Assembly (NCBI GenBank): GCA_003244095.1
Contig: QHCA01000407.1
Location: forward strand, 1-37,440
From: Pseudonocardiales bacterium
GTDB taxonomy: Bacteria > Actinomycetota > Actinomycetes > Mycobacteriales > QHCA01
Direction of reading: 5' to 3'
DNA: 37,440 bases
The position numbers and the translations under genes are program-made. The notes below the pieces were generated by a model. The model was not told where the DNA came from. It saw only the letters and a list, made by a program, of their open reading frames with translations, and made no database searches. Shown here one piece after another: positions 17,775-28,058 of the stretch. Every line of letters starts with the position of its first letter. Within the stretch, counting starts at the first letter, position 1.

Positions 17775-18344
17775 TCACGCCGTTCGACGGGCGGCGAGCC
17801 ACTCGATTGCTCGCTGGGCGCCCGGCTGGAACCGCTCGGGAACCATTGGTAGACGTGCCGCGATGACTGCGGCGTCTACAAGGCCGGCGTCGAGCAGCGC
17901 GCCGACGAAGTTCTGATCCTTCTCGCGCAACGCGCAGAGCTTGGCGACGCAGAGGTCTTCCTTGTCGAGGCACCAGCCCGTGAACTGCGGCTCCTCTGAC
18001 GGTGCGGTGGTGTTGGCGGTTTGCACCTTGACGAGCCGGTTGCGCCAGCCGTCGGGCAGTGCGGACGTGCCCAGGTCGACGCCGTCGATACTGAAGCCAT
18101 GTGTCTGCTCGAACGGTGAGAACTCCCCGGCTACTCCTTCGATGAGGTCGGCCAGCCGTGCCGTCTCTTCGTTGCTCTCGGCGATGGGAAGCACGTCGAC
18201 CTCGACCGACATCGTCGCCGCGGGCGGAAGCTGTTCTTCGCGGTAGGTGCCGAGGATGGACTGGGAACCGACCACGATCACCTCGGGAACCCCGAGGATC
18301 TGGCATGCCGTACGGATCGCGTGCTCCAGCTGGTCGCGGCGCAT
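17775..18344 (-). CDS. nucleotidyltransferase-like protein (DUF6036-type), putative toxin
   Basis: The 189-residue protein has a nucleotidyltransferase core. VIVVGSQSILGTY (Gly26-Ser27) is followed by SVEVDVLP (Glu48/Asp50), then EQTHGFSIDGVDL and DKEDLCVAKLCALREKDQNFVGALL. This matches the DUF6036/AbiEii-related nucleotidyltransferases often encoded beside a small HTH protein. The ATG overlaps the stop of the upstream XRE gene by one base (TGATG), so the pair is translationally coupled. By analogy with AbiE-type and MNT systems it could modify tRNA or protein as a toxin; no activity is demonstrated by sequence. The stop lies 17 bases from att copy 1, so the gene sits at the very edge of the small element. 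Confidence 0.75.
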   Translation of the reverse strand: MRRDQLEHAIRTACQILGVPEVIVVGSQSILGTYREEQLPPAATMSVEVDVLPIAESNEETARLADLIEGVAGEFSPFEQTHGFSIDGVDLGTSALPDGWRNRLVKVQTANTTAPSEEPQFTGWCLDKEDLCVAKLCALREKDQNFVGALLDAGLVDAAVIAARLPMVPERFQPGAQRAIEWLAARRTA

Positions 18345-18862
18345 CAGCTGACCCGGCGCAGGACGTCGGCGCGTTCATCGGCTGATAGGACACCGCCGAG
18401 CGGCGATACTTCGCGCATCTCGATCGAATCCCGGTCAAGGCCGGTGAGGACGCGGCGCAACCCTCGAACGTCACCGGAGTCGACGAGTGACTTCCACCGT
18501 TGCAGGTTCCGTTCGTGCGGTTGGCCCTGCACGCCGCTGCCGAGCCGCTTCAGGTTCTTCCGAATTTCGGGGCGCCACTCGTCCAGCATCGATCGGTTGA
18601 GCCGCAGGGAAAGCTGCCGGTGCAGCTGCCACGAGCGACGCTCCGACCGGGTCAGCTCGGGGACGACCAGACGTCGGACGATTTCGAGGCGGTATCCCAT
18701 GCACGACAGCAGACGATCGAGTTGCTCGTCGCTCATGTCGATCTTGCCGGAGAGGAACTGGCTGATGCTTGGCTGGTGCACGCCGCTGAGCCGGGACAGC
18801 TCTGACTGGGTGGTGCGCGTTTCGCGCATCACCTGCCTCAGCAACTCGCCCCGATCGTCCAC
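18344..18862 (-). CDS. XRE-family HTH regulator, putative antitoxin
   Basis: The 172-residue protein has an N-terminal Cro/CI helix-turn-helix at about residues 18-42 (TTQSELSRLSGVHQPSISQFLSGKI). A basic helical C-terminal domain follows (WRPEIRKNLKRLGSG, LQRWKSLVDSGDVRGLRRVLTGL) that probably contacts its partner. The GTG start at 18862 lies only 6 bases after a TATAGT -10 box, so the mRNA is probably leaderless. A 17-bp palindrome overlaps that promoter, and autorepression is the natural reading. It is coupled to the nucleotidyltransferase gene. The arrangement of HTH gene first, NTase second and autoregulated is that of a toxin-antitoxin locus. Confidence 0.8.
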   Translation of the reverse strand: MDDRGELLRQVMRETRTTQSELSRLSGVHQPSISQFLSGKIDMSDEQLDRLLSCMGYRLEIVRRLVVPELTRSERRSWQLHRQLSLRLNRSMLDEWRPEIRKNLKRLGSGVQGQPHERNLQRWKSLVDSGDVRGLRRVLTGLDRDSIEMREVSPLGGVLSADERADVLRRVS

Positions 18863-19106: not shown

Positions 19107-19289
19107 CCGGATTTTCGGGCTATTTGAGGCCTCTTCCCCTGCGCTCGATCGGGTGCAACAATGGCACATAACCGCAGGTCAGAGGGCTAATCGGCGTTCC
19201 ACTGAGGTCCGTCGCAGTCCGCTGAGATTTGGCAGGGCTTGCGGTCAAGCTGCGGTCATGGACTTGATCTTGAGGATGGAGGCGACCCG

Positions 19290-20414
19290 GTGGCCTGGTC
19301 CCGGAAGCGGGTGGACTCCGACGGTCAGCGCCGGCACACCGGCTACTACCGCGACCCGGCGGGCAAGACCCGATCGGCGGGCACCTTCACCTCCGAACGT
19401 GCTGCGCTGCGCGCCGCCCAACGCCATGAGGTCAAGGTCGAGGACGGCACTTGGTACGACCGGCAGGCCGGTCGGGTCACCTTCCGCCGCTACGTCGAGG
19501 AGCAGTGGTGGCCGAGCCGGCACCTGGAGGCGAGCACGAAGGCGGGCTACCGGTCCTATTTGGACCGGCACTTCCTGCCCTTCTTCGGCGACATCCCGAT
19601 CGCTGACATCCTGCCGTCGGCCGTGCAGGCCTGGGTCACCAAGGCTGCTGCGGACGGCCTCTCGGCGCGGAGCATCGTCAAGTACCACGTGATGCTGCAC
19701 AGCGTCTTCAAGCGGGCGGTCCGCGACCGCGTCATCGGCTACAACCCGTGCGCCGACACCGAGCTGCCCAAGGTCATCGCGCCCAAGACCCGCATCCTCA
19801 CCCCGGAGGAGTTCCAAGCCCTGCTCGCGCACATCCCGCAGCGGTTCGTACCGCTCGTCCTGACCGAGATCGAGACCGGCCTGCGCTGGGGCGAGCTCAT
19901 CGCCCTGCGCCCGCGGCATGTGGACTTCCTGCGCCGCACCATCACCGTCGAAGAGACCATCGTCGAGGTCTCCCGCAAGGTCTCCCCCACCGGGAAGCGA
20001 TTCCTGGTCAAGCACTATCCCAAGGACAACGAGTCGCGGGTCGTCGGAGTGCGGCCCCAGCTGATCAGCGTGCTGAGCCGCCAGATCGAGCGGCTCGGCC
20101 TCGGCCGCGACGACCTACTGTTCCCCTCGGCAGAGACCGCCGGCGGCAACCCGCTCAGCCGCAACACTTTCCGCTCCCGCTACTGGCTGCCGGCATTGGA
20201 AGCCGCCGGGCTCGGCTTCCACGTCCGGATGCACGACCTGCGCCACGCCCACGCCTCCTGGCTGCTCGCCGGCGGCGCCGACCTCAAGACCGTCATGGAC
20301 CGCCTCGGGCACAGCCAGATCCAGACCACCCAGAAGTACCTGCACACGCTGCCCGATTCCCAAGAGCTGGCGCTTGAGGCGCTGACTCGCGTTGAGCGGC
20401 GAGGTGCTGGCTGA
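19290..20414 (+). CDS. tyrosine-type site-specific integrase
   Basis: The 374-residue integrase has an AP2-like N-terminal arm (RRHTGYYRDPAGKTRSAGTF). A SAM-like core-binding domain follows (about residues 65-150, YVEEQWWPSRHLEASTKAGYRSYLDRHFLPFFGDIPI). The catalytic domain has Arg199 (ETGLRWGEL), His315-x-x-Arg318 (HDLRHAHASW), His341 (GHSQIQTTQKY) and nucleophile Tyr350. This is the actinobacterial ICE/phage integrase type that uses tRNA 3' ends. The start is GTG 19290, because GGAGG lies 7 bases upstream. It is placed right beside att copy 2 and very likely made the second insertion. Confidence 0.93.
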   Translation: MAWSRKRVDSDGQRRHTGYYRDPAGKTRSAGTFTSERAALRAAQRHEVKVEDGTWYDRQAGRVTFRRYVEEQWWPSRHLEASTKAGYRSYLDRHFLPFFGDIPIADILPSAVQAWVTKAAADGLSARSIVKYHVMLHSVFKRAVRDRVIGYNPCADTELPKVIAPKTRILTPEEFQALLAHIPQRFVPLVLTEIETGLRWGELIALRPRHVDFLRRTITVEETIVEVSRKVSPTGKRFLVKHYPKDNESRVVGVRPQLISVLSRQIERLGLGRDDLLFPSAETAGGNPLSRNTFRSRYWLPALEAAGLGFHVRMHDLRHAHASWLLAGGADLKTVMDRLGHSQIQTTQKYLHTLPDSQELALEALTRVERRGAG

Positions 20415-20519
20415 CGGTCGTCTCTGACGTGCCGACCCGGGGTGAACCAGCTGGATTGCACGGCCCTTACGTGGATACAACCGTTGCAAGCAAGGCCGCA
20501 GAGCGCAACACTTCTATCC

Positions 20520-21107
20520 ATGACGGGTTGGTGGGATCTACCAGAGACTTTCACCACGCGCGGCGCCCGAGCGAGCGGGGTGCATCCCCGCGACCTCTAC
20601 GCCTGGCGGGACGCCGGCGAGATAACGGAACTCTCGCGGGGTGTCTTCCGCCGGGCGGATGCACCGCAGGCGAGCTATCCGGACCTGCTGGCCGTCTCCT
20701 ACCGCGCCCCGCGGGCAATCGTGTGCTGCGTGTCGGCAGCCGCCGTCCACGACCTGACCGACGCCATGCCGCCAGCCGTACAGATAGCCGTTCCGACCCG
20801 TGATCGTCCGCCCAGGATCACCTACCCCCCGACCGAAACTTTCCGGTTCGATTCGTCCTCCTTCGAGTTCGGCCTGTCCAGCATCGACGCGGCACCGGGA
20901 GAACCCGTCCGCATGTACGACCCAGCCCGGACCGTCATCGACCTGATGCGGCTACGCCACCGCCTCGGCGAACCGGTCGCCCACGGGGCTCTGCAGCGGT
21001 ACCTGCGCCGCCGCGATGCCCAGCCGGCCCACCTGCTGCGACTCGCGACCAGACTCGATGTGCTCGGGCCGGTCAGGTCTGCACTCGACGTGGCTACCGC
21101 AGGATGA
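20520..21107 (+). CDS. abiEi: AbiEi-type antitoxin/regulator (orphan)
   Basis: The 195-residue protein matches type IV antitoxins. The N-terminal winged helix is FTTRGARASGVHPRDLYAWRDAGEITELSRGVFRRAD, followed by the C-terminal antitoxin domain (YPDLLAVSYRAPRAIVCCVSAAAVHDL, VQIAVPTRDRPPRI, YDPARTVIDLMRLRHRLGEPVAHGALQRYL). AbiEi normally represses its own operon and counters AbiEii, a nucleotidyltransferase toxin encoded immediately downstream with overlapping codons. Here the ATGA overlap is present, but the downstream frame stops after 40 codons, so the antitoxin is alone. The ATG at 20520 gives the standard N-terminus; no strong ribosome site precedes it. An orphan may persist as an anti-addiction gene or simply as a relic. 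Confidence 0.85.
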   Translation: MTGWWDLPETFTTRGARASGVHPRDLYAWRDAGEITELSRGVFRRADAPQASYPDLLAVSYRAPRAIVCCVSAAAVHDLTDAMPPAVQIAVPTRDRPPRITYPPTETFRFDSSSFEFGLSSIDAAPGEPVRMYDPARTVIDLMRLRHRLGEPVAHGALQRYLRRRDAQPAHLLRLATRLDVLGPVRSALDVATAG

Positions 21108-21253: not shown

Positions 21254-22051
21254 TCACTGGTTCGCAACCGCGACCAGCGCTCCCATGACCGCGGCGTACA
21301 GCCGCTTGGTCAACTCCTGCATTCGGTCCGCCTCGCTCTCATCGTCCAGCCAGATGTCGTTCCACGACCCCATGCCACCGAACACCCAGGCTTGGAAGCC
21401 AGCCGCGAGCAGCTGCCGCTGGTCGAGGGCGAGCCATCCCGCAGGCGTGATATCTGGGTTGTAGGGAACCTCGGGGTCAGGGTCGGCGGCCGCAGCGATG
21501 GCCTTGGCGAACCACTGTGCCCAACCCAACAGCTCGTTGGTTAGGGCGAAGGAACGAGCGCCTCTAAGCGCGGCGACGAGTTCGGCTGACGCCTCCGCGA
21601 CCGATCGTGGCGAGCTTTCCGGCAGCGGAGCGAGCGCGAGCGAGGTCATGGTCACGCGCCAGATCTCGCCTTGTGGGTGTTGGGTGCCATGCGTGTCCCA
21701 CCGGCTCGACCACAGCGCCGGGGCGGGGCCGTGCGCCACGAGCCCGCGCGGAACTCCGTTGGCGAACGCGGAAGCGATGTGGGGAGCGAGCGATCCGTCG
21801 ACGAGCGCCGGACTGTACAGCGCCAGGCGCTCCACGCCCTCGGTGCGCTGGACCGTCAGCCATTCTGAAGTGCCCTGCATCTGCCGCTCGCGGCTGAACA
21901 GTCCTTGCCGCGGCTCGACGAAGGTGAGCGAGTGGACGTAGCGGAACGTGGTGTTGTCACGTTCGAGGTTGGGCGCCGGCTTTGACGTATCGGCGAGCCA
22001 GGCGTTGCCGTGCAGCACGACGGCAATCAGTGCAGCGAGCTCTCCGTTCAC
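21254..22051 (-). CDS. hypothetical protein, fourth gene of the DUF4132-type cassette
   Basis: The 265-residue product is soluble with no signal peptide. Visible stretches are LIAVVLHGNAWLADTSKPAPNLERDN, FRYVHSLTFVEPRQGLFS, GVERLALYSPALVDGSLAPHIASAFANGVPRGLVAHGP, RVTMTSLALAPLPE and an aromatic, helical C-terminal third (LTNELLGWAQWFAKAIAAA, GFQAWVFGGMGSWNDIWL). It has no Cys and no catalytic motif I can name. The start is taken as GTG 22051, 23 bases after the preceding gene's stop, although no good ribosome site is visible; translation may be coupled. Its place as the last gene of a four-gene minus-strand run suggests a role with the ubiquitin-like protein and the giant HEAT-like protein. 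Confidence 0.7.
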   Translation of the reverse strand: MNGELAALIAVVLHGNAWLADTSKPAPNLERDNTTFRYVHSLTFVEPRQGLFSRERQMQGTSEWLTVQRTEGVERLALYSPALVDGSLAPHIASAFANGVPRGLVAHGPAPALWSSRWDTHGTQHPQGEIWRVTMTSLALAPLPESSPRSVAEASAELVAALRGARSFALTNELLGWAQWFAKAIAAAADPDPEVPYNPDITPAGWLALDQRQLLAAGFQAWVFGGMGSWNDIWLDDESEADRMQELTKRLYAAVMGALVAVANQ

Positions 22052-22074
22052 AACGGAGACGTTACCGACGCCAG

Positions 22075-22800
22075 CTACTTGAAGTAGTAGTACCAGTTGC
22101 TCGCGTAGTTGGTGTCGAAGTTCTCCTTGCTGTCGACCGCTATCGCGACGTCGTCGCGCGTCAAGTAGCCGAACTCGTCGTGTCGGTTCGCGAGCGCGAA
22201 GTAGGAGTCGGCCCACGCGTCGGGCATCGACGAGTTCATCAGTGCGGCCGCTTGGTCCTCCGTGTGGACAAATACGATCGGTGGCCCAGCGAACCGCTCA
22301 GTACACCAGAACTGCTCACCGAGCCCGAGCGATGCCACCCAGTCATCGAGTTCGGGACGGGGCACCAGGTCGTTCACCTCCCGCTTCGCGGTGCGCTCGA
22401 AGTCGGAGAAGACCACGAAGATTTCGTTTCGCCATGGGTAAGTTCGCGGCGTTCGTCGGGGCATGCCAAAGAGTCGCCGCAGGTCCATGCCGCGCATGGT
22501 GCCGACGAAGAGATCGGCGACCTGACGCTGCTTGCGTGTGTCGTAGTTGGCGAACGGTTCGGGCGACGCGTTGAAGGACAGGCATTGAGAGCTGCGCTCA
22601 AGCACGACGCCGAGCCTCGGCCTACTCCCCGCGCGCTTGGGGCGTTCGATCGTGTCCACTCCAACAGCCAACGGTGGAAAGCCAAATCGGTCGTCGAAGG
22701 ACGCGACGAAGGCGTCGTAGATCGAGTCGAGCAGCGAGGTCCCTTGCTTGAGGCGCTTCGCGCTCAAGTACGCCCGATCGCTTGGAAGGAAGAAGCTCAC
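22075..22800 (-). CDS. hypothetical protein, third gene of the DUF4132-type cassette
   Basis: The 241-residue product starts MSFFLPSDRAYLSAKRLKQG. An alpha/beta core follows: FGFPPLAVGVDTIERPKR, RLGVVLERSSQCLSF, NEIFVVFSDFERTAKREVNDLVPR, PPIVFVHTEDQAAALMNSS, then an aromatic tail (NYASNWYYYFK). There is no signal peptide or membrane segment. Alternating VGVDT/GVVLE/FVVFSD strands could be an enzyme or binding fold, but no family is recognised. The GTG at 22800 follows a GACGGCGG stretch, 70 bases after the stop of the giant gene. Orientation and spacing place it in the same transcript. Confidence 0.7.
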   Translation of the reverse strand: MSFFLPSDRAYLSAKRLKQGTSLLDSIYDAFVASFDDRFGFPPLAVGVDTIERPKRAGSRPRLGVVLERSSQCLSFNASPEPFANYDTRKQRQVADLFVGTMRGMDLRRLFGMPRRTPRTYPWRNEIFVVFSDFERTAKREVNDLVPRPELDDWVASLGLGEQFWCTERFAGPPIVFVHTEDQAAALMNSSMPDAWADSYFALANRHDEFGYLTRDDVAIAVDSKENFDTNYASNWYYYFK

Positions 22801-22870
22801 CCGCCGTCACCACCTATCCGTCCTTTCGGACGCAAGCAATATTCAACGCCAACGACCCCGGGTGGAGTCC

Positions 22871-25800
22871 CTATCCCACCAGCTGTTGCAGGATCGTCGG
22901 GTCCTTGATCTTGTCGTCGCGTGCCAAGAGAACGACCTTGGCCACGACCTCGGCAGTTCGGGGGTCGTCGTCCGCGAATGGCAAGAAGATGCGGCCACGG
23001 TGCTGGGCGGAGACCGGCACTATGCAGACGGCGTTGCCGGGGATTCGATGAACGACACCCGAGCCGAGGTGGATCGAGTACGTACCGAGCATCCCCTTGA
23101 CACGCGCGTGGTGACCGCCGACTTCGACGTTGGTCATGCCGAGCATCGAGGCTGTCTCGTCCACCAGGCGCCCGCGCATGGTGGTGGAAGATTCCGAGGC
23201 TTCGGGGTCAACGCCGCTCGTGTGCGCCACGGAGACGACCAGATCGAGATCCCGCATCGTTTCCGAGAACACCCGGGCAGGGACGTCCGCGAGCGGTAGC
23301 GGCTGCCACCTGCCAGCTGGATGGAACGTGACGTCATCGATGGTGGCGTCCTCGACCTCGGTCGGCGAGCCCCACCCGTTAACCAGGTGGCACCACGCGG
23401 TGATCTTCTGCTGGTGGAACGTTCGGGAGAAGCCCTGCTCGAAGTCGGCGACCCAGCCGCGGGACGTGAAGATTCCGCTGGCGTGTCGACCTTCGACTTG
23501 GTGACCGGCGTACCTGCGGGAGCTCACGCCGGCTTCGTCGCATTCGTTCTCGTTGAGCGTGTAGAGCTCGCGGAAAAGCTGTTTGAAGGGCTGCCGTCGC
23601 TCCGCAGCCATCAGTGCGTGCTGGAAGTCAGGCCAGTCCCCGGACGAGAGAAGGTCGGCCGGGTGTGCAACCCGCAGGGCTCCTATGGCGGCGCTCTCGG
23701 TCCCGTCGGCTGCGGACAGCCTGGTGCCGTCGAGTGGGAAGCCGACCATCCCTTCGTCGTCCACGAGGACGAGATCGCGAAGCATCGGGGCGAGGATCGG
23801 ATGTCGCAGGAGGTCTGCCAACTCGTCCGGGTCGAACGCGTCCCCGAGGACGCAGGCCGATTCCAGCGAGGTTCGCATGCGGCGGATCTGCTTTCGCAGG
23901 GACGTCGCCCGGTCTCGTAGTTCGGCGATCTCGGGCACCTTGGCACTCTTGGCAGGGACGGAGTTCAGCGGCTTGCCGGCCCGGTGGACCGTTAGCTCCG
24001 GCGATCCGGTGGCGTCGATGGAAAGGGCCACGACAAGGTCACCATCTTCGGCTGCGATGGGACCGTCGGCCAGGTCGCGGACCGCCTCTGCCTCCATGGC
24101 CCACACCAGACGCTGAGGGTCGCGGAACCCCGCGGTCCGGGCAAGGTTCTCCAGTCCGACTTCGACGGCGGTGGATTCGGAGGCTCGACGCTGCGAGCCC
24201 GAGGTTCGGTCGGAGGCAACGAACCCGCGGAGGAGCTCGTAGCGGACGAGCAGCGCCTTCTGGTTGGGCAATGGGAGTAGGCCGAGGGCGCGAACCGCGT
24301 CCTGGTGGCGCTTAGCGTGGATCCGCTGTACGACCTCGGCTTCGTCGATCTTCCCCAGTAAGGCGGTAGCGAACAGTTCTGCACGCTTGTGGCCGCCCGA
24401 TGATGAGGCGTACTTCGCGGCCTTGAGTACCTGGTTGAAGCGGTTTTTGCCGAGCGTGCCGATCAGGTCATGGAACCAGACGACATCTGCGGCACCGTTG
24501 ACGAGGTCAGTCGCGTCCAGAGGGGTGTGCTGACTGACCTCGGTCGCCCATTGGGCGCGGATCTCGGCATCGACGGACCAGCTGCCGTCCTTGGTGTGCG
24601 CGTGCACCCACCACACTGCCGACTCGAGCCCGGCCCAGGCGAGGTGTTGCTCAATCAGACGGGACCACTGAGGTGCATACACGGCGGTCTCGATGAGCCG
24701 CTGGTCGGAGACTTTGGCTTCCTTGGCAAGCCGGCCGAGCGCCTCAGCAGTGTCGTCGGATAGCGGTTGGTTGACGCGAATGAGGTGGGAGAGGCTGCTC
24801 TCTCGCGACTGGGTCCAGGCGTAGGCACGGGCGAACGGCCGCTTTCCGAGCGCGGCGAGGCATTGCATGAGTTGCTGCGCGCCGTATGTAGTGCGCAGAC
24901 CATGGGAGGTCTCGGAGAGCTCGGTCGGAAGATCTCCGCGAGCGACCTCCGCCTCAATCACTGCGGCTCGCACCTCGCATACGACGCCCTGAACCTTGTC
25001 GCCTGCGGCCCAAGACTCGGGCCGGAGTCCGGTAAGCACACGGAGGGCGTCCTGCCGTGGCCCATGGGAGAACCAGTAGTGAACGCGCGGAGCGACGACG
25101 AGCGCGTCGATCAGGTCTGCTTTGGTCGCTGCACCCCGGTTGAAGGCCTCGACGAGGATCCTGGCCGGGGGCGGCCATCGGTCGAGTTGGTCAGGCACCT
25201 GCACCGTTCCGCCGGCGCGGCCGTAGGCGTTGCCGACTTCGACCTCGACCTTCGGGCCATCCCAGCGGTCAACGGGCCCTTCCGGCTCATCGATGAACCT
25301 GAGCGCACGCCAGAGCCGAGCAAGCTGGTCGTCGGTCAGACTTAAAGGATCAATGAAGTCCGGGCTGCCGCTGAGCAGGTCCCGGAAGTCGGTGCGATCA
25401 TCGGCGCCGATCGGATTGCCCCAGCGATCCCGTTCGAGTCGCCGACCACGGCGCGCCAGGACTTCCGCTGGTCCTCGAAGCCCGTCGACCGGCAGAGCGG
25501 CGGCCACCGTCTCGAGGAAGCGGAGCAGGGGCTCAGCCCAGGAGTCGCGCTTGGCGTAGTGCCCGATCGCTCTGAATGCCTGCCACTGCAATGCGTTGAC
25601 GTCGGCCATGGGAAACTCCGATGCCACTGGTCCGACAACGGTGCGGGTGACGTCGACCGCCCAGCGTCGGTTCACCCGCGGGATGTACGAGAGGAGAGCT
25701 ACCTCGACCCCACCGTCGGTCAGCTGTGGCTGGATGCGTTCCCACCATGGGCCGAGGACCTCGGGAAGTGGAAGCGCGCCGTCCTTGCCGGAGTGGATCC

Positions 25801-27655
25801 AGCGCATGTTCGCCAACAGGACAACGCCCTGGTACGTCTGAACCTCGACGTCGGCGTGTTCGGCGAGCCAGCCGCTCAGCGAGGTCCACGCGAGTCGGAA
25901 CCGGTCGTGGTGCGGCCCCCACGATGCGGCCGTCGGGGCCGTGGGTCGCTGAGCCAGCGTTCGATCGCCGGCCTTGAACAGGATCGCTGACGGAATCTCG
26001 TCCGGCTGGCTCGCGTCGGTTTCGCTGCGGCCGCCGAGCTCGTCTGCGGCCCTTCGCTGATCGGCGGTCCCGGATGCGAGTCGCTCTATCGAGGCTGCGC
26101 GCGCGGCCGGGCCCTGCCTCTTGAGAATCAAGAGGGCTGTCGCGCGCAGGTCAGCCGCCTTGCGGCTGAGGGCTTCCTCCAAGAGTCGGGCTTCGTCCGC
26201 CGAGATCGCGGGAAGCGACTGAAGGGCACCACCGACGGTGTCGCGCACCATCGTCGAGCGATCCCCCACGAGCGAGAACAGTGCCGCTCGGTTCGCGACC
26301 GGGTCCTTGGCGTACTCGCGGGCCGCGACGGAGCGACCGTCTGCGGACGCCACAGCCACTAGCTTGGGGTCGAGTGGACGGTCGCCGGAGTGGCAGATGA
26401 GCACGTCCGCAGCAAGGGTGCTGCCGACCTTGCGTGGCAAGCTTCCGATCAGCCCGGTGTCGACGTCCTGGACCTTGCCGAGCGTGCGGACGCGCTCGTA
26501 CAGGTTGGTCCGGACCGGTTCAGGCATCGGCACCGGGGATTGCTCGAATCCGTGTGCGTGGGCCGGCCAGGCGGTCACCGCGGCCGCGTACACCGCAAGA
26601 GACGGGTCCACGACCGCGCGGATCAGTCCGGCGGCGGTAGCGGGGATTCCGAAGTCGGTGAGCAGTCGGGCGGCCGCCAGCCTGGTGCGTTCGTTTCGAC
26701 TGCTCTGTAAGGATTCGGCCGCGCCGATGGCCGAGTGAACATCACGGACCGCGATGGACCAGACGCCGAGAAATGCGTCAACCGGGTCAGCGTCGGCGAG
26801 AGCGTCAGCCTGCGAGGGCCTGCGGAGCTGATCGCGGATGATCGCCACAGCCTCCGCAACCTGCTTCTCCTGGCGCACGGTGAGGTCCTCGCCGATCCAG
26901 ACACCCAGGGCGCGCACGGTCCCGGCGAACCTCGCCATCCGGTGTTCGACGACCAAGTCGAGGATGCGGGCGAAAGCGTCGGGATGGGCGAGATCTGCGG
27001 CCTCGAGGATCGTTTGGCGCAGCCCCTCGGAGCGCTGGGCGGCGACCAGGAGGCGCTCTACCTCCGACCAGGCGGCAGGGTCAGGCGACGACAGGAGTGC
27101 GACGTACGCGTGATGCGACGGGCCGCTGATGTCGTGCTCGCCACGAATGCTCGCGGTGACGACCCTGGCGACCTCGGTGTCGCCATGGGCGATGGCGGAA
27201 GCGAAGAGCGAGCCCAGCGGGACGTACTGGCCGAGCTGCAGCGCCCATTCGGCCTGCCATGCCAGAGGCTGGGGGTACTGCACGCCGTGTTGCAGGAACT
27301 GGCGCAGCTCCATCCAGCGCGCGCTGAGGGAGTCGGCGCGGTCCGGAGACCGGTAGGCGCGACGCTGCCAGCCTCGTTGATAGGGCTGCTGCGCGGACCA
27401 GCCCCACCAGCGGGCGAGGTCCTTGCCGAGCTCTGGCGTGAGGGAGCTGAGTACCTTCTCGCGTTTGGGGAGGCTGAGTTCGTCGAGCTGCCGAGCGACT
27501 GGTTGCCAAGGCCTCCGGGTGTCGGCCAACGCGGCGACGATGTCGGAGGCCAGCCTGGGCGCCAAGAACCTGTGGACGCGCACGCCCTTCGCGCGGTCAC
27601 TCTCCGACGCGGCGTACTTCTGCATCTCCGCACGGGCGGCATCCCCCGAGAGCAC
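22871..27655 (-). CDS. giant DUF5724/DUF4132/DUF7737-type protein
   Basis: The 1594-residue protein is all-helical in its first two thirds, with HEAT-like repeated helices (e.g. ERTRLAAARLLTDFGIPATAAGLI, KAADLRATALLILKRQGPAARAASIERLASG). I assign this to DUF5724. A DUF4132-like region lies at about residues 1190-1420 (LFRELYTLNENECDEAGVSSRRYAGHQ, AWCHLVNGWG). The last 95 residues are of the DUF7737 type (TYSIHLGSGVVHRIPGN, CIVPVSAQHRGRIFLPFADD, KVVLLARDDKIKDPTIL). Such proteins have no proven activity; the related E. coli YehI (MolR) is also uncharacterised. The GTG start is one base after the stop of the ubiquitin-like gene, so the two are almost certainly co-translated. It takes up about a quarter of the island. 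Confidence 0.85.
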   Translation of the reverse strand: MLSGDAARAEMQKYAASESDRAKGVRVHRFLAPRLASDIVAALADTRRPWQPVARQLDELSLPKREKVLSSLTPELGKDLARWWGWSAQQPYQRGWQRRAYRSPDRADSLSARWMELRQFLQHGVQYPQPLAWQAEWALQLGQYVPLGSLFASAIAHGDTEVARVVTASIRGEHDISGPSHHAYVALLSSPDPAAWSEVERLLVAAQRSEGLRQTILEAADLAHPDAFARILDLVVEHRMARFAGTVRALGVWIGEDLTVRQEKQVAEAVAIIRDQLRRPSQADALADADPVDAFLGVWSIAVRDVHSAIGAAESLQSSRNERTRLAAARLLTDFGIPATAAGLIRAVVDPSLAVYAAAVTAWPAHAHGFEQSPVPMPEPVRTNLYERVRTLGKVQDVDTGLIGSLPRKVGSTLAADVLICHSGDRPLDPKLVAVASADGRSVAAREYAKDPVANRAALFSLVGDRSTMVRDTVGGALQSLPAISADEARLLEEALSRKAADLRATALLILKRQGPAARAASIERLASGTADQRRAADELGGRSETDASQPDEIPSAILFKAGDRTLAQRPTAPTAASWGPHHDRFRLAWTSLSGWLAEHADVEVQTYQGVVLLANMRWIHSGKDGALPLPEVLGPWWERIQPQLTDGGVEVALLSYIPRVNRRWAVDVTRTVVGPVASEFPMADVNALQWQAFRAIGHYAKRDSWAEPLLRFLETVAAALPVDGLRGPAEVLARRGRRLERDRWGNPIGADDRTDFRDLLSGSPDFIDPLSLTDDQLARLWRALRFIDEPEGPVDRWDGPKVEVEVGNAYGRAGGTVQVPDQLDRWPPPARILVEAFNRGAATKADLIDALVVAPRVHYWFSHGPRQDALRVLTGLRPESWAAGDKVQGVVCEVRAAVIEAEVARGDLPTELSETSHGLRTTYGAQQLMQCLAALGKRPFARAYAWTQSRESSLSHLIRVNQPLSDDTAEALGRLAKEAKVSDQRLIETAVYAPQWSRLIEQHLAWAGLESAVWWVHAHTKDGSWSVDAEIRAQWATEVSQHTPLDATDLVNGAADVVWFHDLIGTLGKNRFNQVLKAAKYASSSGGHKRAELFATALLGKIDEAEVVQRIHAKRHQDAVRALGLLPLPNQKALLVRYELLRGFVASDRTSGSQRRASESTAVEVGLENLARTAGFRDPQRLVWAMEAEAVRDLADGPIAAEDGDLVVALSIDATGSPELTVHRAGKPLNSVPAKSAKVPEIAELRDRATSLRKQIRRMRTSLESACVLGDAFDPDELADLLRHPILAPMLRDLVLVDDEGMVGFPLDGTRLSAADGTESAAIGALRVAHPADLLSSGDWPDFQHALMAAERRQPFKQLFRELYTLNENECDEAGVSSRRYAGHQVEGRHASGIFTSRGWVADFEQGFSRTFHQQKITAWCHLVNGWGSPTEVEDATIDDVTFHPAGRWQPLPLADVPARVFSETMRDLDLVVSVAHTSGVDPEASESSTTMRGRLVDETASMLGMTNVEVGGHHARVKGMLGTYSIHLGSGVVHRIPGNAVCIVPVSAQHRGRIFLPFADDDPRTAEVVAKVVLLARDDKIKDPTILQQLVG

Positions 27656-27656
27656 G

Positions 27657-28058
27657 TCAGCCTCCCGCGAGTGCGACCAAGCGCACCAAGCGCAACGTCG
27701 AGTCCGGACGTACCGCGATGGGCGCGTCTAGGTCCTCAACCTGGACGTCATCGACGAAGACGAAGAACAACCCGTCACCGAAGGCTTCAAGGGCTCGCTC
27801 GATCGCCTGAGCCTCCGAGGGCGGAGCCGGGACCGCACGTGCCTCACGCCCGTAGGTTCCCGTGTCGACACCGCGCGCCAGGTCGGCGGGAGTGAGGACC
27901 CGCAAGGTCTTGCTGGCCGTTCGGCGCTGCTCGTAGGACGCGAGTTCATGGCGAACCAGCAGGCCAAGAAGGTCGCGCAGCAATCCGATGTCGACGGGAA
28001 CCGCGACGTCCTGCGTCTCGGTGTCCTTGCTGCCGACCACCTTCGTCTCAACAATCAC
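27657..28058 (-). CDS. MoaD/ThiS/ubiquitin-like protein with C-terminal Gly-Gly
   Basis: The 133-residue product reads like a beta-grasp protein with an insertion. A first strand (MIVETKVVG), a second strand and helix (TQDVAVPVDIGLLRDLLGLLVRHEL) and then about 55 mainly helical or disordered residues come first. The closing part FFVFVDDVQVEDLDAPIAVR and STLRLVRLVALAGG matches the 'VNGxxVxLDTxLxDGDEVxxLPPVAGG' ending of MoaD/ThiS. It stops directly after the diglycine, as in mature ubiquitin-like and sulfur-carrier proteins. It has no E1 or sulfurtransferase neighbour. The GTG start follows AGGGG, and its stop is one base from the giant gene. The fold assignment is mine from sequence layout; it could be a structural partner rather than a conjugated modifier. 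Confidence 0.7.
   Translation of the reverse strand: MIVETKVVGSKDTETQDVAVPVDIGLLRDLLGLLVRHELASYEQRRTASKTLRVLTPADLARGVDTGTYGREARAVPAPPSEAQAIERALEAFGDGLFFVFVDDVQVEDLDAPIAVRPDSTLRLVRLVALAGG

Follow-up and report, generated by a model that had tools for sequence, protein, structure and literature searches.

A predicted ubiquitin-like protein ending in Gly-Gly and its giant DUF4132/DUF7737 partner: a conserved two-gene unit with a possible link between tail and cysteine

The window, by which we mean the whole stretch of 37,440 nucleotides analysed from this Pseudonocardiales bacterium, has four open reading frames which follow each other on the minus strand, separated by 1, 70 and 23 bases. The first one (27657..28058) codes for a small protein of 133 aa with a predicted ubiquitin-like beta-grasp fold, an assignment which draws on the reading frame and its sequence, family alignments, AF2 and Foldseek. 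It matches no Pfam family. The protein ends in LVALAGG: the codons of its terminal Gly132-Gly133 (GGA GGC, 27660..27665, minus strand) are directly followed by TGA, and one base further we find the GTG start of the next gene. This second gene (22871..27655, minus strand) codes for a giant protein of 1594 aa with three Pfam domains of the same strand, all above the curated cut-offs: DUF5724 (E 7e-160, best stretch in residues 886-1187, 24095..25000), DUF4132 (E 9e-35, residues 1227-1401, 23453..23977) and DUF7737 (E 1e-34, residues 1492-1592, 22880..23182). It has no WGR domain in Pfam. The codon of Cys1544 (TGC, 23024..23026, minus strand) lies in DUF7737; in the comparison of columns presented below it is the position which tracks the Gly-Gly tail. 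The two remaining genes, also on the minus strand, code for proteins of 241 (22075-22800) and 265 residues (21254-22051); the C-terminus of the latter is weakly DUF6966-like.

Close to these genes there is an AbiEi-type gene (20442-21107, plus strand, PADLOC E 5e-92), a tyrosine integrase (19239-20414, plus strand) and an HTH gene adjoining a DUF6036 nucleotidyltransferase (17775-18862, minus strand). They form a mobile-element-like cluster, apparently unrelated to the small protein and the giant. No E1 gene is present in the window; the ThiF-family matches of this genome are found on other contigs. We have found no LexA, RDRM or PafBC-type boxes in the window upstream of the small gene. In all these descriptive points, namely the four frames and their spacing, the exact LVALAGG end, the domains of the giant, the missing E1 and the neighbouring integrase and abortive-infection-type genes, our results agree with the first-pass annotation of this DNA.

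The conserved unit is formed by two genes, the small protein and the giant, not by four. Relatives were sought in both directions: the small protein as query matched many Actinomycetes, while DUF7737 as query matched the giants. Whichever of them was used, the two genes are found side by side, in actinobacterial and Deinococcus loci usually with a spacing of -1 to 5 bases. In the class, 297 genomes were compared: 23 have DUF7737, 22 have the small protein and 20 have both. A tie between the two genes, as first proposed, is borne out; homologues of the small protein are found mainly together with the giant. The four-gene cassette has to be abandoned, because no fetched locus contains a homologue of the genes of 241 and 265 residues; they are missing in the Nocardioides loci, although the giants there are 77-87% identical over their C-terminal part. 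Across the fetched loci there is no recurrent neighbour of the pair; in particular no E1, E2, JAB or defence gene recurs beside it. In the closest relative, Nocardioides sp. 503, Hen1/Pnkp RNA-repair genes lie directly 3' of the giant (L045:9545-13469). This operon does not recur at other loci.

The distribution of the pair is broad. The C-terminal part of the giant was scanned against 84,980 species. From the 537 relatives found we kept 80, which belong to Actinomycetota, Bacteroidota, Planctomycetota, Cyanobacteriota, Chloroflexota, Armatimonadota, Acidobacteriota, Bacillota, Pseudomonadota (metagenome bins), Lentisphaerota and methanogenic archaea. With the Deinococcota loci, which were added from a plasmid collection, the pair spans at least 12 phyla of bacteria and archaea. 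In every inspected locus of this broad scan with enough flank the small protein adjoins the giant, sometimes downstream instead of upstream of it (L112, L117, L121). The plasmid collection gave few matches, none of them predicted to be mobilizable, and searches of phage and viral collections did not find the pair. Some actinobacterial loci depart from this arrangement: in L039 and L149 the small protein has no giant alongside, in L040 the giant is on the opposite strand, and several extra giants have no small-protein neighbour. In three genomes (G182, G240, G362) the giants outnumber the small proteins, with up to three of the former to one or two of the latter; this surplus suggests that one small protein may serve several giants. 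Remnants are found in L008 (G027) and in G321:C1:261038-261388, where a deletion has fused the start of the small protein in frame to the C-terminal part of the giant.

For the small protein, a ubiquitin-like beta-grasp fold of the MoaD type is predicted. An AF2 model built with 17 homologues (pLDDT 81) has the order strand-strand-helix-(insert)-three strands, followed by a loose tail. The best PDB match in Foldseek is MoaD (1fm0_D, E 3e-3, probability 0.98); other molybdopterin synthase subunits and ubiquitin-like proteins come next. The first-pass annotation was thus right about the kind of fold, at the level of prediction. It had also stated that the last 35 residues match the closing part of MoaD/ThiS; we find no such match in sequence: ThiS in Pfam matches none of 33 family members and a profile comparison (hhalign) of the family with a ThiS gave no match. 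The likeness is found in the predicted structure only. In the giant, the C-terminal 494 residues also give a confident model (pLDDT 89); it has no match in the PDB (best E 0.42) and does not correspond to any known enzyme fold.

The C-terminal tail of the small protein is found in several classes. We have compared 121 pairs: 59 end in Gly-Gly and 62 do not, having either GA/GM ends or extensions such as GSYW. The Gly-Gly ends predominate in Actinomycetota, Deinococcota, cyanobacteria, Chloroflexota, many Planctomycetota and many Armatimonadota. GA or GM ends are found in Phycisphaera-type relatives, extended ends (GSYW, GRIW, GGIF etc.) in Bacteroidota, Bacillota, Acidobacteriota and archaea. 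On the tree of giants the states other than Gly-Gly form one clade with extended tails and one GA/GM group, so that the Gly-Gly tail looks ancestral, unless the root falls inside the extended clade. It had been expected that most homologues would keep the terminal Gly-Gly; about half of those sampled lack it, and they correspond to two lineages which have also lost the cysteine of the giant.

This cysteine is Cys1544. It is present in 58 of the 59 pairs with Gly-Gly and absent in 61 of the 62 others. The two exceptions are L114, which has Gly-Gly with Phe, and L178, which has Gly-Gly plus one Ala with Cys. Among 248 columns it is the one which best discriminates both classes (frequencies 0.98 and 0.03, as compared with 0.83 and 0.09 for the next one). 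When we take the 48 columns of the giant which are at least 90% conserved across dereplicated giants of the Gly-Gly class, the extended class has lost just one, and so has the GA/GM class: in both cases it is Cys1544. The pattern, first noticed on 57 giants, was then checked with newly fetched loci of five phyla. Here 30 giants with Cys have an adjacent small protein, of which 29 end in Gly-Gly and one in Gly-Gly plus Ala; the sole giant without Cys is accompanied by a GA tail. One genome (G747) holds both states, Cys with Gly-Gly (L161) and Glu with GA (L054).

The same association is apparent when the partner is lost. In G304 the small protein is absent from the whole genome, and Pro occupies this position in the giant, which is intact and falls within the Cys clade. 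Giants from six more genomes without the small protein (G914, G995, G963, G988, G934, G1169) all lack the cysteine, while it is kept in giants which have no adjacent partner when a Gly-Gly protein is present elsewhere in the genome. It is still seen in the giant fragments L135 and L137, from genomes without the small protein; both genes look broken. The MolR-like giants sampled, about 960 residues long, lack the small partner as well as the cysteine. The independent changes are few, two for the tail and four or five when partner losses are counted: pair tests run at about 3:0 in favour of the association and phylogenetic sign tests give p 0.25-0.5; with so few events significance at 0.05 is out of reach. 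As judged from the sequences, this shared fate of the Gly-Gly tail and Cys1544 suggests a reaction or a contact between the two ends.

The pair is also present in Deinococcus radiodurans. DR_A0165 (SEP068184) and DR_A0166, located after trxC, are a member pair, with the small Gly-Gly protein directly upstream of the DUF5724/DUF4132/DUF7737 giant. In the list of the DdrO regulon DRA0165 appears together with an RDRM, and the induction of DRA0166 by mitomycin C depends on IrrE (PMC8533742). DR_A0165 increases after irradiation and H2O2, its deletion gives a higher survival to H2O2, and the protein, for which a MoaD-like fold had been predicted earlier, binds Trx1 (PMC9650054). The two papers handle DR_A0165 and DR_A0166 separately, whereas here they are a single unit; the papers that we found on these genes make no mention of a link between Gly-Gly and Cys. 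The gene has also been stated to be exclusive to Deinococcus and to have no RDRM (PMC9650054). Our results disagree on both points: the pair is found in other phyla, and RDRM-type boxes (TTATGCTATTTACATAA and variants) are found upstream of the small gene in four Deinococcus species (L124, L125, L127, L128). Outside Deinococcus the candidate LexA-like boxes are weak, with one or two mismatches each: a cyanobacterial one in Microcoleus (L050, at -32) and Gram-positive ones in Lysinibacillus (L111 and L120, at about -190).

A stress function of the pair is thus supported by the data on Deinococcus rather than by its location in the window, from which defence or stress had originally been suggested. 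The defence part of that suggestion finds little favour. An AbiEi-type gene and an integrase do lie close to the window copy; however, neither the pair nor the two genes that follow it match a PADLOC model, the neighbours of 26 loci have no enrichment in defence genes and, as already mentioned, phage and viral collections lack the pair. That it is an anti-phage system appears very improbable. The pair is most likely a stress-linked complex of a ubiquitin-like protein with a giant scaffold or enzyme, in which we infer that both proteins bind to each other.

What is directly in hand is the pairing, the predicted fold, the joint conservation and joint loss of Gly-Gly and Cys, and the DNA-damage control boxes in Deinococcus. 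Our preferred reading, which we hold with slightly less than even confidence, is that of a two-protein stress module in which the Gly-Gly end acts with Cys1544, likeliest through a housekeeping E1 and by thioester or sulfur chemistry; binding, covalent link, E1 and the later action of the giant are all inferred. The small MoaD-type protein would have the DUF4132/DUF7737 giant as its dedicated partner. In the ancestral form, which includes the pair in the window, the free Gly-Gly would act together with the cysteine of DUF7737. The C-terminus would be activated by an E1 of the MoeB/MoeZ type encoded elsewhere in the genome and would then be carried on Cys1544, or hand sulfur to it, as a thioester, acyl-disulfide or persulfide; MoaD-like proteins and Urm1, which use reactive cysteines, are the model for such chemistry. 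Two lineages would have given up the chemistry and retained the pair as a non-covalent complex. E1 genes are present in all 16 tested genomes with Gly-Gly, but they are found nearly everywhere else too and do not discriminate. A bolder form of this reading is rather unlikely: the pair would be a minimal ubiquitin-like system of two components, which DNA damage or oxidation switches on. Its giant would be a dedicated Cys acceptor or transferase that takes the Gly-Gly end with no need of E2, E3 or deconjugase, and two descendant lineages would have dropped the covalent step and kept the complex.

The main rival is a structural subunit which does no chemistry. The beta-grasp domain would dock on the giant with its tail buried in a pocket walled in part by position 1544; Cys beside Gly-Gly, and Ser or another residue beside a longer tail, would be alternative packings. 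We consider it possible, on the unlikely side. The pair does outlive the loss of both Gly-Gly and Cys, residues L130 and G132 of the tail are invariant in all tail classes, and Ser is the usual substitute for Cys (42 of 61 giants from pairs without Gly-Gly). On the other hand, in the GA/GM lineage the length of the tail is kept and only the last Gly is altered, yet Cys is replaced by Phe, Glu, Val, Leu or Pro; this pattern fits better with lost chemistry than with altered packing. Furthermore, the cysteine is essentially invariant among giants of the Gly-Gly class which are only about 30% identical to one another, and it is lost where the partner is absent. Of the modifier and the structural subunit, the two roles initially put forward for the small protein, either may be right; the link of tail and cysteine, known from sequence comparison, speaks for a specific role of the Gly-Gly end.

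Gly-Gly and Cys might instead be unrelated ancestral features, lost by chance on the same branches. With just two independent tail changes and formal tests without power this has some room, but the loss of the same single column out of 48 on both branches would occur by chance about once in 48 cases, and the contrast within G747, together with G304 and the MolR-like giants, goes in the same direction: we find a coincidence improbable. About as little credit can be given to a general modifier or sulfur carrier, which MoeB/MoeZ would charge and which would be attached to many proteins or would feed a sulfur pathway, the giant being a ligase, reader or sulfur-using enzyme. The MoaD-like predicted fold, the free Gly-Gly and the E1 genes in 16 of 16 genomes agree with it, and co-immunoprecipitation of DR_A0165 brought down many proteins besides thioredoxin Trx1 (PMC9650054). 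However, that experiment used a C-terminally tagged protein, with its Gly-Gly end blocked, and interactors were still recovered; genes for conjugation, deconjugation or cofactors do not recur nearby and half of the pairs have no Gly-Gly. Finally, the window has GGGAGGC just ahead of TGA and the GTG of the giant, but the idea that the Gly codons persist solely because the coupled giant gene needs them as its ribosome-binding site is largely refuted and has almost no chance as a general explanation: an SD-like stretch is found there in only 18 of 65 Gly-Gly genes. Gly-Gly is also retained in loci without a giant behind the small gene (L039, L040, L149) and in loci whose giant begins about 40-120 bases further on (L050, L114, L164, L182).

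Several known systems share features with the pair. The sulfur carriers MoaD, ThiS and CysO have a beta-grasp fold, in our case predicted, and a free C-terminal Gly-Gly, which the small protein has in the window and in 59 of the 121 pairs. The small protein differs from them by the lack of detectable sequence homology and by a long insert after the first helix; moreover the pair has no neighbours for cofactor synthesis or sulfur transfer, and the giant takes the place of MoaE, ThiG or CysM. Urm1 and the archaeal SAMPs are likewise MoaD-like proteins ending in Gly-Gly. Unlike them, the protein described here has a single co-encoded giant partner and has lost Gly-Gly in two lineages. Bacterial operons for ubiquitin-like conjugation (type II CBASS, Bil and related) also contain a small Gly-Gly protein. 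These operons contain genes for E1-like and E2-like proteins, often with a JAB protein as well (PMC1779556, PMC10097602), whereas in the pair no such gene recurs and two genes alone are conserved. Proteins of the MolR/YehI type (WGR-DUF4132) have DUF4132 in common with the giant, but the window giant has no WGR, and the sampled DUF4132/DUF7737 relatives of about 960 aa have neither partner nor cysteine.

An unnamed family of small proteins and three domains of unknown function are thus joined into one unit, found in 12 phyla. The unit is tied to a laboratory model, D. radiodurans DR_A0165/DR_A0166, for which a deletion strain and a tagged protein have been published, and a hypothesis at the level of residues, from the terminal Gly to Cys1544, is now available. 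Should the link prove covalent, the pair would count as an unusually simple ubiquitin-like system. A non-covalent link would still explain a widespread pair, induced by DNA damage, whose parts have been studied apart.
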